Below, one piece after another: positions 46,191 to 61,858 of a DNA stretch of 64,000 nt. Source of the stretch: Candidatus Marisimplicoccus framensis (GTDB lineage: Bacteria > Bacteroidota > Bacteroidia > Flavobacteriales > Flavobacteriaceae); assembly GCA_905182065.1 (NCBI GenBank), contig CAJIZN010000001.1, forward strand, positions 186,001 to 250,000. Reading direction: 5' to 3'. The notes under the pieces are model-generated. The model did not search any database, had not been told where the DNA came from, and saw nothing but the letters and a program-made list of their open reading frames with translations. Both the position numbers and the translations under genes were made by a program. The stretch's first letter is position 1, and each line of letters begins with the position of its first letter.

Positions 46191-46571
46191 ATGTCAATAG
46201 ATAAATTTTTTCCATTATTATCACTAATTATTTTGTGTAATTCTTCTTTGAATGCTCAAGATGAAAATGTGATATATAATGATACATTAACAAAGAATCT
46301 TTTTCAAATTAAAAAAGACTACAGTAAGAGAATATTTGAATCAACTTATTATACAATTCAAATATATTTTGGAAGTCTAGATGAAGCAGATTCAATTTTA
46401 AATGATTTTAAAGAAAATTTTAAGGACATCAAAACAGATTTAATTTTTGAAACACCAAATTATAAAGTCAGAATTGGAGAGTATAAAAATATTGACACTG
46501 CCTCTCAAAAATTAGAAGGTATAAGAAGAATATACCCTGGATCTTTTATTATAAAACTTTCTGAATTATAG
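46191..46571 (+). CDS. SPOR-domain protein, secreted
   Basis: 126 residues. Signal peptide (hydrophobic stretch ending SSLNAQ). The C-terminal 80 residues match the SPOR fold: YYTIQIYFGSLDEADSIL, DIKTDLIFETPNYKVRIGEY, and LEGIRRIYPGSFIIKLSEL. SPOR domains bind denuded glycan strands of septal peptidoglycan, so a periplasmic or outer-membrane associated role in cell division or wall remodelling is likely. Stands alone with its own promoter box, convergent on infB with a 6-base overlap. Confidence 0.9.
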   Translation: MSIDKFFPLLSLIILCNSSLNAQDENVIYNDTLTKNLFQIKKDYSKRIFESTYYTIQIYFGSLDEADSILNDFKENFKDIKTDLIFETPNYKVRIGEYKNIDTASQKLEGIRRIYPGSFIIKLSEL

Positions 46572-49119
46572 CTTTCTCTTTACTTCAACTTCCTGGTAGC
46601 ACTGAATAATATCACCCTCCTGAAGGTCATTAAATTCATTAATCTGAATACCACAATCATAGCCTTTAGCTACCTCTTTAACATCATCTTTAAATCTTTT
46701 AAGAGAAAGTAGCTTACCATCAAAAAGTATTTCTTCAGCTCTTAATACTCTAACTTTCGAGTTTCTAAATATTTTTCCTGAAGTTACCATACAACCTGCT
46801 ATAGTACCCATTCTGGAGATTTTAAAAGTCTCTCTAACTTCTGCATCTCCTGTATTCTCCTCCTCAAACTTAATCGAAAGCATCCCCTCCATAGCATCCT
46901 TCAAGTCATTAATTGCATCATAAATGATTGAATAAAATCTTATGTCCACTTGCTCTTTCTCAGATAACTTTCTAGCACTAACAGTTGGCTTAACATTAAA
47001 ACCTATAATAATTGCATCAGAGGCTGAAGCTAATAAAACATCTGACTCTGTTATTGCCCCTACAGCTTTAAATATAATATTTACCTGAATTTCTTCAGTT
47101 GACAAATTCTCAAAAGAATCTGTCAGAGCCTCTACTGATCCATCTACATCACCTTTAATAATTACATTAAGTTCTTTAAAGTCTCCAATCGCAATTCTCC
47201 TTCCAATTTCATCAAGAGTTAATTGTTTCTGAGTTCTAACATTCTGCTCTCTTCCTAATTGTGTCCTTTTAGAAGCGATCATTTTAGCTTCTTTTTCATC
47301 TTCAAGAACTTTGAATGGATCTCCTGCTTGAGGAGCGCCATCCAATCCTAGAACAGATACAGGAGTTGATGGAGGTGCAAGCTTAACTGGCTTTCCTGCT
47401 TCATCAAACATAGCTTTAACCTTTCCACTAGTTTTTCCAGCCAAAAGATAATCACCTAATTTTAAAGTTCCATTTTGAACAAGTATAGTTGAAACATAGC
47501 CCCTACCTTTATCTAAGTATGCTTCTACAACTGATCCTGAAGAGTTCTTATTAGGGTTAGCTTTTAAATCCATTATCTCTGCCTCAAGTAAAACTTTTTC
47601 AAGAAGAGAATCAACACCTTGTCCTTTTAATGCAGAAATATCTTGAGATTGAATCTTACCACCCCAATCTTCTACTACTAGGTTCATTGATGCAAGAGAT
47701 TCTTTAACTTTATCAGGGTTAGCACCTTCTTTGTCAATTTTATTTATTGCAAAAATTATGGGTACACCTCCTGCTTGAGCATGACTTATTGCTTCTTTTG
47801 TTTGAGGCATTATATTATCATCAGCAGCAATTACAATTATTACTATATCCGTGATTTGAGCACCTCTAGCTCTCATTGCAGTAAAAGCTTCATGACCAGG
47901 TGTATCTAAAAATGTAATTTTTTTGGACTTATTAACTAAAACAGAATAAGCTCCTATGTGTTGTGTAATTCCACCAGACTCTCCATCTGTTACAGATGAA
48001 CTCCTTATAAAGTCAAGAAGAGATGTTTTACCATGATCAACATGCCCCATCACAGTTACTATTGGAGGTCTTTCCTCAAGATTTTTAGGATCTTCTTCTT
48101 GCTCTTCTTCTTCTTGCTCTTCTTCAATATCAGTTTTAATAAAATCTAGTTCGTATCCAAATTCGTCTGCCACAACTGTAAGGGTTTCTGAATCTAGTCT
48201 TTGGTTCATCGTAACCATTATACCAAGAGTCATACATGTAGATATTATATCATTAGAACTTATATCCATTAGCGTTGCAATCTCTCCAACAGTTATGAAC
48301 TCAGTAATCTTAATTATTTTACTTTCCTTTTCCTGTAAAGCTTCTTCTTCTTCAGTCTCAATTTTTCTTTGATCTCTTTTATCTTTTCTGTATTTAACAC
48401 TCTTCGACTTGGAGGACTTTCCTTGAAGTTTTTCAAGAGTTTCCCTAATTTGTTTTTTAATTTCGTCTGCCGTAGGCTCTACTTTTTGAGAAGCAGTAGT
48501 GGGCTGTTTGGCATTTTTATTGAACCTATTAGCTAAATCTTTTGGCTTAGAGACATCTTTACTTATTCTTTTTCTTCTTTTCTTTTTAGATTCCTCTAAT
48601 TTCACTTTAACTTGGTCTTCTTTCTTTTTAATTGAATCTAAATCAATTATCTCTCCAGTTTTCTTTAGACCTGAAAGCTTTTGGAAATTTGTTTGAATTT
48701 TGGATGGATCGTCAGGATTTACTTTGATATCCACAGAAGGTTCCTTAGTTTTTGGAATAGAATCGGATACTTCTTTATTAGGTATCTCTTTTTTTTCAAT
48801 TGGTTTAAGATCTTTTTCAGCTAGCCTTTTCAGCTGCCTTTTCAGCTGCCTTTTCAGATTTTAATTCTTCCTCCCTTAATTCTGCCGCTAACTTAACTTC
48901 AATCTCTTTTCTCTTTTTAACATTAATTTCTTCAAGCTTATCCTTGTCAGATTTATCTGTTTGAAATTCATCTAGCATAAGATCGTAAGTAATTTGATCG
49001 ATCTTAGAGGTTGGCCTTGGCTCTATTTCAATATTTTTTGAACTAAGAAATTCAATAGCTCTATCTAGAGATATATTTAATTCTTTAAGAACTTTGTTTA
49101 ACCTTATTGGTGATGGCAT
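46566..49119 (-). CDS. infB: Translation initiation factor IF-2 (frameshifted in the N-terminal linker)
   Basis: About 850 residues when joined. Directs initiator tRNA to the ribosome with GTP. The start frame (49119-48817) gives MPSPIRLNKVLKELNISLDR, the IF2N domain, and a charged linker, ending at a false stop after EKAAEKAS. An extra base at 48823 in a 12-base repeat (GAAAAGGCAGCT) causes it; shifting gives EKDLKPIEKKEIPNKEVSDS and on through the G domain: GHVDHGKTSLLDFI, DTPGHEAFTAMRARG, NKIDKEG, SALKGQGVDSLL, then domains II, III and the C2 initiator-tRNA domain. An essential protein, so an assembly or sequencing error is very likely. It follows nusA after 9 bases. Confidence 0.93.
48819..48855 (-). 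repeat. Three near-identical 12-base units in infB linker
   Basis: Minus-strand GAAAAGGCAGCT occurs twice exactly and once with one added T (GAAAAGGCTAGCT). The added base is what breaks the frame. The units encode Glu-Lys-Ala-Ala in the linker. Confidence 0.85.
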
Positions 49120-49128
49120 ATATATTTT

Positions 49129-50361
49129 TTAGTCTTCGAATTCTTCCTTTAAAACTTTTAAGACACTAGATACTGTCTCTTCTTCAAGATCAGTTCTTTT
49201 AATTAAATCCTCTGCACTTAACTCTAAAACACTCTTTGCTGTGTCTAATCCAACTTTTCTAAATTCTTCAATAACCCATGCATCAATTTCATCCTTAAAT
49301 TCAGAAAGCTCAACATCTTCTTCTGCTCCTTCCCTGTAAACATCTATCTCATATCCTGTCAACCTTCCTGCTAATCTTATATTATGCCCTCCTTTACCTA
49401 TTGCTCTTGAGACTTCGTCAGGATGAAGATAAACCTGAACAGTTTTTTTCTCCTCATCAATTTTTAGAGAATTTACTTTTGCAGGACTAAGAGCCCTAGT
49501 AATAAATAATTGAATATTATTCGTGTAATTTATAACATCAATATTTTCATTACCTAACTCTCTTACTATTCCATGAATTCTTGAACCCTTCATTCCAACA
49601 CATGCTCCAACAGGATCAATCCTATCATCATAGGAATCAACAGCAACTTTTGCTTTTTCACCTGGTATTCTTACAGCTTTCTTAATACTAATTAAACCAT
49701 CAAAAACTTCTGGAATCTCTTGTTCAAATAATTTTTCTAAGAACAATGGTGAAGTTCTTGAAAAAATAATTCTAGGTTTATTTCCTTTTAGTTCAACCAT
49801 CTCAATCACTCCTCTTACATTGTCACCCTTTCTAAAGAAATCTTTGGGTATTTGTTTGTCTTTAGGCATTATTAATTCATTTCCATCATCATCTAGAAGA
49901 ATCACCTCTCTAGCCCTGACATGATGAACCTCAGCGGTGAATATCTGTCCAACTCTATCTTTAAACTGATTAAATATATTATTACTATCATGTTCATAGA
50001 CTTTAGCAACAAGATTTTGCCTAAGTGATTGAATAGATCTTCTACCTAAGTCAACTAACTTAAACTCCTCTGATACTTCTTCTCCTACCTCAAAGTCAGG
50101 CTCAATTTTAACTGCTTCTTTAAATTCAATCTCTGCATTAGGATCTTCAACCTCGCCATCCTTGACAACTATTCTATTTCTCCATATTTCAAGATCTCCT
50201 TTATCAGGGTTAATAATAATATCGAAATTTTCATCCGAACCAAATTTTCTTTCAAGAGTATTTCTAAATACTTCTTCAAGTATAACCATTAAGGTTACTC
50301 TGTCAATTGTCTTTTCATCTTTGAATTCAGAAAAAGAGTCTAATAGTGATATGTTTTCCAT
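49129..50361 (-). CDS. nusA: Transcription termination/antitermination factor NusA
   Basis: 410 residues. Binds RNA polymerase and nascent RNA, affecting pausing, termination and antitermination. N-terminal domain (about 1-130), S1 domain (about 135-200, GQIFTAEVHHVRAREVILLD), then KH1 and KH2 (VGACVGMKGSRIHGIV and AIGKGGHNIRLAGRLTGYEI). A short C-terminal acidic helix-hairpin piece follows. Followed by infB in the usual order, but the usual upstream rimP gene is absent: tRNA-Gln lies there instead. A hairpin with a T run sits between a promoter box and the ATG. Confidence 0.95.
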   Translation of the reverse strand: MENISLLDSFSEFKDEKTIDRVTLMVILEEVFRNTLERKFGSDENFDIIINPDKGDLEIWRNRIVVKDGEVEDPNAEIEFKEAVKIEPDFEVGEEVSEEFKLVDLGRRSIQSLRQNLVAKVYEHDSNNIFNQFKDRVGQIFTAEVHHVRAREVILLDDDGNELIMPKDKQIPKDFFRKGDNVRGVIEMVELKGNKPRIIFSRTSPLFLEKLFEQEIPEVFDGLISIKKAVRIPGEKAKVAVDSYDDRIDPVGACVGMKGSRIHGIVRELGNENIDVINYTNNIQLFITRALSPAKVNSLKIDEEKKTVQVYLHPDEVSRAIGKGGHNIRLAGRLTGYEIDVYREGAEEDVELSEFKDEIDAWVIEEFRKVGLDTAKSVLELSAEDLIKRTDLEEETVSSVLKVLKEEFED

Positions 50362-50377
50362 TTACTTAACTTTATTT

Positions 50378-50407
50378 AAAAAAAAAAGAGGGACAAAACG
50401 TCGCCTC
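50378..50407 (-). terminator. Intrinsic terminator just before nusA
   Basis: On the minus strand GAGGCGAC-GTTTT-GTCCCTC forms a 7-pair stem with one bulged C and a 5-base loop, followed at once by T10. It ends 17 bases before the nusA ATG. It could end the tRNA-Gln transcript, or act as an attenuator for transcripts starting at the box 50428-50435. Confidence 0.75.
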
Positions 50408-50427
50408 TGATGTATCAAAATGCTCGG

Positions 50428-50435
50428 CAAATTTA
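50428..50435 (-). promoter_or_regulatory. Candidate -7 promoter box between tRNA-Gln and nusA
   Basis: Minus-strand TAAATTTG fits TAnnTTTG and is followed by CC. Transcription would begin about 15 bases before the terminator hairpin and read through it to reach nusA. Confidence 0.5.
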
Positions 50436-50462
50436 TTATAAATAATTGATATAATAAAATTG

Positions 50463-50535
50463 TTGGCCTACTAGGTTTCGAACCTAGACTCTTCTGTACC
50501 AAAAACAGACGTGTTGCCAGTTACACCATAGGCCA
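50463..50535 (-). tRNA. tRNA-Gln (anticodon TTG)
   Basis: Minus-strand cloverleaf: acceptor TGGCCTA pairs with TAGGCCA, D-arm with GGTGTAACTGGCAACAC, anticodon stem TCTGT/ACAGA around loop TTTTGGT giving TTG, variable loop, and T arm CTAGG-TTCGAAA-CCTAG. Length 73; CCA not encoded. It has its own TAnnTTTG box 8 bases upstream. Confidence 0.95.
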
Positions 50536-50543
50536 ATTAACTG

Positions 50544-50551
50544 CAAATTTA
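50544..50551 (-). promoter_or_regulatory. Candidate -7 promoter box for tRNA-Gln
   Basis: Minus-strand TAAATTTG fits TAnnTTTG, followed by C, 8 bases before the tRNA 5' end. Confidence 0.55.
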
Positions 50552-61824: not shown

Positions 61825-61858
61825 AAAAAAACCCCAAATTAGTTTGGGGTTTTTTTTT
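61825..61858. terminator. Bidirectional intrinsic terminator
   Basis: A run of A, then ACCCCAAA-TTAG-TTTGGGGT, then T8: an 8-pair stem with a 4-base loop, T-tailed in both directions. It lies between the convergent phosphate transporter and nrdA genes. Confidence 0.92.

Follow-up and report, generated by a model that had tools for sequence, protein, structure and literature searches.

A terminator-like hairpin directly before nusA in a rimP-less genus of Flavobacteriaceae: a probable form of the rimP-leader

In the window, by which we mean the whole 64,000-nucleotide stretch of Candidatus Marisimplicoccus framensis DNA analysed here, the leader of nusA is probably the rimP-leader attenuator of a former rimP-nusA-infB operon, in which termination stimulated by NusA, some 43 nt downstream of the transcription start, would limit nusA and infB. 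Elements of this kind are known, and what is new is a form in Bacteroidota that lacks rimP and has the hairpin directly at nusA, a position that it holds in the window because rimP is gone from there. A sequence-only reading of this DNA had already proposed an attenuator at this site; that proposal stands, although both the absence of rimP and the known rimP-leader kind were missing from it.

Anatomy of the nusA leader

All of the features described here lie on the minus strand. The -7 promoter box of the nusA leader, TAAATTTG, is of the TAnnTTTG class and lies upstream of the hairpin at 50428–50435, as previously noted; no TTG was seen in the window sequence about 20 nt to its 5′ side, where a -33 element would lie. 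If transcription starts 5 nt past the box, as we assume, 14 nt precede the hairpin in the window leader, and a short leader transcript of about 43–45 nt (50378–50422) is predicted between the assumed start and the T run. The terminator hairpin itself, AGAGG(C)GAC-GTTTT-GTCCCTCT (50387–50408), is recognized from sequence, fold and comparison as the counterpart of the rimP-leader stem. It has eight pairs, or seven without the outer A-U, and one bulged C; the earlier description of a seven-pair stem left out the outer pair and did not mention the bulge, although the T10 tract that it reported is present as an uninterrupted run (50378–50387), the first T of which is paired in the hairpin. The nusA gene (410 aa, 49129–50361) has its ATG at 50361, and the gap before it is 16 bases by our count (50362–50377) rather than the 17 given earlier; comparison identifies these bases as the site of rimP in related genera. 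We read no promoter box in the sequence between hairpin and ATG, in agreement with the earlier claim that there is none. The upstream neighbour, which lies outside the attenuator, is a tRNA-Gln(TTG) gene (50462–50535) with a further TAAATTTG box 8 nt to its 5′ side (50544–50551) that is probably its own promoter, and TAAATTTG is found before tRNA-Gln in the most divergent genus locus (L022) too.

The 40-nt hairpin segment folds with -9.9 kcal/mol (z -4.0), a stability equalled by none of 200 shuffles. For the 66-nt leader as a whole, the fold does not stand out (z -1.15; 24 of 200 shuffles are equally stable). A simple terminator scan of the window, the description of which permits no bulge, does not list the hairpin. 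A finder that allows one bulge reports 8 sites per strand across the 64 kb and marks 3 of the 53 gene starts in the window, with nusA at the top (26.5); the other two, scored on the hairpin only, reach 22.5, for a hairpin that stands 120 nt ahead of its gene, and 23.0, for one that overlaps the gene start. The comparisons described below are much stronger evidence for the hairpin than these fold statistics. Elsewhere in the window, a strong two-way terminator-like hairpin at 61828–61853 (AAAACCCCAAA...TTTGGGGTTTT), with T on both strands, is the top-scoring site of that type.

Conservation of hairpin and box

The genome that contains the window (1.23 Mb, 87.6 % complete) has as its nearest named relatives, judged by NusA, uncultured marine Flavobacteriaceae or Bacteroidetes MAGs and single-cell genomes. 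A nusA match is present in 23 of the 25 genomes of the genus, one of them (L023) being a fragment without a start, and at all 22 loci with a readable start the gene is preceded by tRNA-Gln, the box, the hairpin and T9–T10. When these 22 leaders are aligned, the arms are invariant and the loop is variable, the bulged base is A for C in L007, and the T tract is T9 in 20 loci and T10 in two. The TAnnTTTG box lies 18–20 nt 5′ of the hairpin in every one (1.0 expected), and even in L022, whose leader is the most divergent, it reads TACATTTG and is still TAnnTTTG. The pattern AGAGGNGACN5GTCCCTCT has exactly one copy in 22 of the 25 genomes and none in the other three.

Beyond the genus, a terminator-like hairpin was found in the -150 to +30 region of the first gene at 100 of 102 loci of the family, 21 of 27 in the rest of the class and 18 of 18 in the rest of the phylum (22 of 22 in the genus), where dinucleotide shuffles give expectations of 1.9, 0.9, 1.1 and (genus) 0.7. 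These counts exclude 7 of 176 loci, namely L063 (Ns) and L146, L150, L160, L172, L178 and L179 (no usable rimP start), as well as the duplicates L053, L054, L126, L129 and L131; several family rows come from one genus, so that rows are not independent, and in some rows from beyond the class the marked hairpin may be another terminator of a tandem pair. In each of the eight loci that the finder missed, a hairpin is visible by eye, with an over-long loop in the two family rows (L028 and L110) and a weak or interrupted T run in the six class rows. The finder's hit at L040 and L084 is the tRNA terminator, although the leader hairpin is visible at both; these two are kept in the hairpin and box counts and excluded from those of pair changes, leader folding, leader ATGs, and T tracts and spacing. 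Nearly every locus read outside the genus has rimP as the gene between hairpin and nusA.

A TAnnTTTG box stands 15–60 nt 5′ of the hairpin at 22 of 22 genus loci, 96 of 100 in the family, 17 of 21 in the rest of the class and 1 of 18 in the rest of the phylum (1.0, 4.6, 0.7 and 0.4 expected), the 96 family hits being spaced 15–31 nt from the hairpin. Since only one of 18 loci beyond the class has it, the linkage of box and hairpin is class-wide and not phylum-wide.

The usual family stem is GAGGGGAC...GTCCCCTC, and the corresponding pattern, GAGGGGACN{3,6}GTCCCCTC, has a single copy in 106 of the 149 genomes of the family and more than one copy in none; its reversed form, used as a control, is present in one. 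In all 75 genomes with listed positions, comparison by eye places the stem pattern 0.5–0.6 kb ahead of nusA or of the nusA fragment. Among 71 unbulged family stems (bulged stems, 27 in the family and 22 in the genus, are left out of the table of pair changes), G-C has become C-G at stem pairs 4, 5 and 6 in 3, 3 and 5 rows respectively, changes of G-C to A-T are seen too, and in some species the entire stem is swapped, for example to GAGGCACGC...GCGTGCCTC. These two-sided changes show that the pairing has been maintained.

Loss of rimP and known counterparts

The RimP_N domain (PF02576) was found by HMM in none of the 25 genomes of the genus, just two of which are at least 90 % complete, and was detected in 138 of 149 family, 193 of 198 phylum and 356 of 396 class genomes. 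The model misses RimP-like proteins encoded directly before nusA at L280, L281, L292 and L294 (families f47 and f64) and at L110 (G040), and the RimP encoded at the sister-clade locus L031 (G089) passes the cut-off of 22.7 bits with a score of no more than 24.4. Because of these misses, the near-cut-off score of L031 and the small number of near-complete genomes, a divergent RimP may be encoded elsewhere in the genus.

We read the leaders of RimP-negative genomes in G028, in three genomes of family f31 and in 18 of 19 further genomes where nusA was found; outside this set are 20 further class negatives, seven family negatives that also have no nusA match, and G064, a one-contig genome in which the nusA start and its upstream region (L270, G064:C1:715300-717600) read as N. 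Four of the 18 (f47 and f64) and L110 were removed from the rimP-less set because a RimP-like ORF stands directly before nusA. Eight lineages have no rimP at nusA, namely the window's genus (g1), G028, f31, f53, f60, f79, f93 and f61, and seven of them (six of the seven besides the window's genus) have a hairpin with a T-rich tail before nusA, such as GAAGGGGGACATTGTCCCCTTC (G028), CGGGCAATTGCCCG (f31), AAAGGGGGATTTGACAAAGTCCCCCTTTT (f53) and GAGGGGACTATGTCCCC (f93). At a fixed threshold, and with a finder that differs slightly from the main one in its longer loops and its threshold, 14 of 19 rimP-less loci (the genus being given one representative) are positive within 160 nt, each at a level seen in at most 2 % of its own shuffles; 13 of these positive loci also carry a TAnnTTTG box 5–60 nt before the hairpin. 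Visual inspection shows a stem of 4 pairs (GGGC) at L274 and one of 5 pairs, with its T run interrupted, at L283; the f53 hairpin is present at L288, 143 nt upstream of nusA, and at L282 a hairpin lies close to a contig edge, 248 nt upstream; no hairpin was seen before nusA in the rimP-less L296, from a 0.5-Mb genome. A NusA tree of 50 rows has 7 label changes, at least 3 of them forced by branches with an SH-aLRT of 95 or more, and an earlier tree of 80 rows has 3, all forced; both are quick trees with SH-aLRT support and long-branch warnings. G176 was considered as a case in which rimP and nusA are separated and was discarded, as the appearance is due to a contig edge and the two genes are adjacent with the hairpin before rimP. 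In G331, where they are apparently apart, none of the structures before nusA could be called a clean hairpin, and this genome counts neither for nor against the reading.

The hairpin thus stays with nusA after the loss of rimP, standing before NusA-encoding genes at all 22 readable genus loci and in further rimP-less lineages, and this argues, from the comparison of sequences, that the element follows nusA and not rimP, and favours NusA over RimP as the protein served. RimP is correspondingly disfavoured as the feedback protein by the rimP-less lineages that keep the hairpin. The product served by the rimP-leader was left open in 2010, and these lineages offer an answer by comparison.

The passages of Naville & Gautheret (2010; PMC2965389) that deal with the rimP-leader describe it as the most ubiquitous attenuator, a short GGGc...gCCC hairpin with no antiterminator that lies 4–130 nt from its gene; Firmicutes and Gammaproteobacteria are named, and NusA is given as the best candidate for the protein, with RimP considered too. 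Neither 'Bacteroid' nor 'Flavobacter' occurs in the main text of that paper. The element described here resembles the general rimP-leader in having an intrinsic-terminator hairpin and U tract at the rimP-nusA-infB operon (before rimP in the relatives, before nusA in the genus), with a G-rich 5′ arm and a C-rich 3′ arm and no visible antiterminator, but differs from it in that the window has no rimP, the stem is bulged, GAGG(C)GAC/GTCCCTC, and the box is TAnnTTTG. As to the GGGc...gCCC signature, the 3′ arm in the window keeps CCC, and the 5′ arm, GAGGCGAC, is without a run of three Gs. The leader has hardly any room for an aptamer or an antiterminator, and in none of 136 leaders folded from the assumed start was there a competing fold of leader and 5′ arm as stable as the terminator, so that no antiterminator was found among them. 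The Rfam rimP model (RF01770) finds nothing at the gathering score of 47 bits in the window or in any of 99 class genomes, that of the window included, and it has no match in 8 loci up to an E-value of 10; weak sub-threshold matches at E-values up to 1, counted anywhere in the genome, are present in 91 of the 99.

A structured, transcribed 5′ element before rimP has been described in Flavobacterium psychrophilum and in other Flavobacteriaceae genera, with no Rfam hit (PMC9723704). The word nusA does not occur in the main text of that paper, and its sections on the element tie it neither to the rimP-leader nor to rimP-less genomes. This element may be identical with the one found here, which would give a candidate identity to what the relevant part of the F. 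psychrophilum transcriptome paper (PMC9723704) leaves as an original cis-regulatory RNA. Among the matches listed for open-licence main texts, we found no report of NusA feedback or of a rimP-leader in Bacteroidota other than PMC9723704.

The E. coli operon metY-rimP-nusA-infB has two terminators, t1 and t2, before rimP and a promoter, P2, at the 3′ side of metY, according to the portion of PMC6511841 that treats it. It shares with the window a tRNA gene upstream, a promoter at the 3′ side of that gene, a terminator or terminators ahead and an encoded NusA, but the tRNA is tRNA-fMet there and tRNA-Gln here, and E. coli keeps rimP.

Proposed mechanism and alternative readings

We propose that RNA polymerase would start just past the TAnnTTTG box and transcribe a single-stranded stretch of about 14 nt, followed by the hairpin, as part of the 5′ UTR, and by the U tract; a part of the polymerases would release an RNA of about 43 nt, and the rest would continue into nusA-infB. 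NusA bound to the polymerase would favour the hairpin, so that more NusA would give more termination and less nusA mRNA, a negative feedback that needs neither a ligand-binding domain nor an antiterminator and in which the simplest sensor would be the elongation complex with NusA. The distance from the assumed start to the hairpin is 13–15 nt in the genus and 10–26 nt in the family, and an RNA that ends with the T run would be about 43–50 nt long. If correct, this is a very small feedback circuit that can be tested. The original report of NusA autoregulation in Bacillus subtilis is said to be that of Mondal et al. 2016.

In B. subtilis, NusA is autoregulated through NusA-stimulated termination in its leader, and its effect is greatest where the hairpin is weak or the U tract is interrupted, as set out in the part of PMC12288461 concerned with this factor. 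Gene entry would likewise be gated by intrinsic termination in the leader in both cases, on experimental grounds there and by deduction here, although the B. subtilis rimP leader is given as about 180 nt in the relevant passage of PMC2965389, against about 43 nt for ours. The traits that bear on NusA dependence are mixed. The genus has a weak bulged stem (median stability -9.7 kcal/mol, against -15.2 kcal/mol in the family) and an uninterrupted T9–T10, and the family has a stronger stem, followed in 72 of 98 leaders by TTTTT and then ATA; by the B. subtilis rule, the uninterrupted tract makes NusA dependence in the genus less to be expected, and the bulged, weaker stem points the opposite way, towards it. 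A wider proposal, for which we see the case as evenly balanced, is that selection keeps a minimal attenuator (promoter, about 14–20 nt, hairpin and U tract) at nusA through repeated losses of rimP in Bacteroidota, that the rimP-leader would really be a feedback element of nusA with polymerase and NusA as the sensor and no other RNA part, and that the bulged stem and long U tract of the genus and its sister clade may represent a re-tuned set point.

It is conceivable, though we think it unlikely, that the hairpin is a true attenuator with a sensor other than NusA, acting as a fixed dampener or responding to NusG or Rho, nucleotide levels, temperature, IF2 or translation. The NusA precedent is experimental in another phylum, and 47 of the 98 family leaders have an ATG that overlaps the hairpin's 5′ flank and could couple translation. 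However, the frame of this ATG is not conserved (12 are in frame and open, 10 are out of frame and 25 meet a stop), the ATG is absent from the 22 genus leaders, where the hairpin is so close to the assumed start, and RimP as the sensor is disfavoured by the lineages without rimP. A conserved leader peptide starting at the hairpin was rejected, as the ATG is present in only those 47 leaders and its frame is not kept. Leaders with this hairpin-flank ATG (ATGAGGGGAC...) are found among L033–L128, and the 12 in which it continues without a stop in the rimP frame belong mostly to genus g128.

That the hairpin is a plain tRNA-Gln terminator, with nusA depending on readthrough or on a promoter that escaped notice, is very improbable. 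The tRNA-Gln gene ends 53 bases before the hairpin in the window, and no separate terminator was found between the two in either of the genus leaders checked (the window's, L001, and L022), so that the hairpin may also end the tRNA-Gln transcript in the genus. However, although tRNA-Gln is upstream at all 22 genus loci, it is present within the stretch examined at only 13 of 103 family loci outside the genus. The leader hairpin stands before rimP at every one of these 13, and 10 of them (not L026, L060 or L073) also show a separate terminator at most 60 nt behind the tRNA; nearly all of the other 90, with no tRNA-Gln in the stretch examined, have the hairpin as well, and the conserved box sits between tRNA and hairpin. 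Termination of tRNA-Gln alone is rejected as the main role of the hairpin. The preference of the sequence-only reading for an attenuator over such a terminator is borne out by the presence of the hairpin with or without the tRNA, by the conserved box and by the retention at nusA in the absence of rimP.

We consider it most implausible that the hairpin is no terminator in vivo and serves as a 5′ hairpin shielding the mRNA or tuning translation, a role with some precedent in the tuning of translation by mRNA structure in Bacteroidetes that lack Shine–Dalgarno sequences (as covered in part of PMC6847099). In most leaders the hairpin runs straight into a T-rich tract, also in those with an entirely different stem sequence, and the distance from hairpin to start codon spans 5 to 112 nt across the family.

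The attenuator that we favour would also control infB (46566–49119, named from its own sequence), the next gene of the operon. In the window infB lies in two frames (48817–49119 and 46566–48734), a 100-aa N-terminal piece being followed by one of 722 aa, and the frame changes within a repeat rich in Lys, Glu and Ala. The frame break is either an assembly error or a real change; the gene is open over the stretch examined at 20 of 21 other genus loci, and at L004 it is seemingly shifted too.
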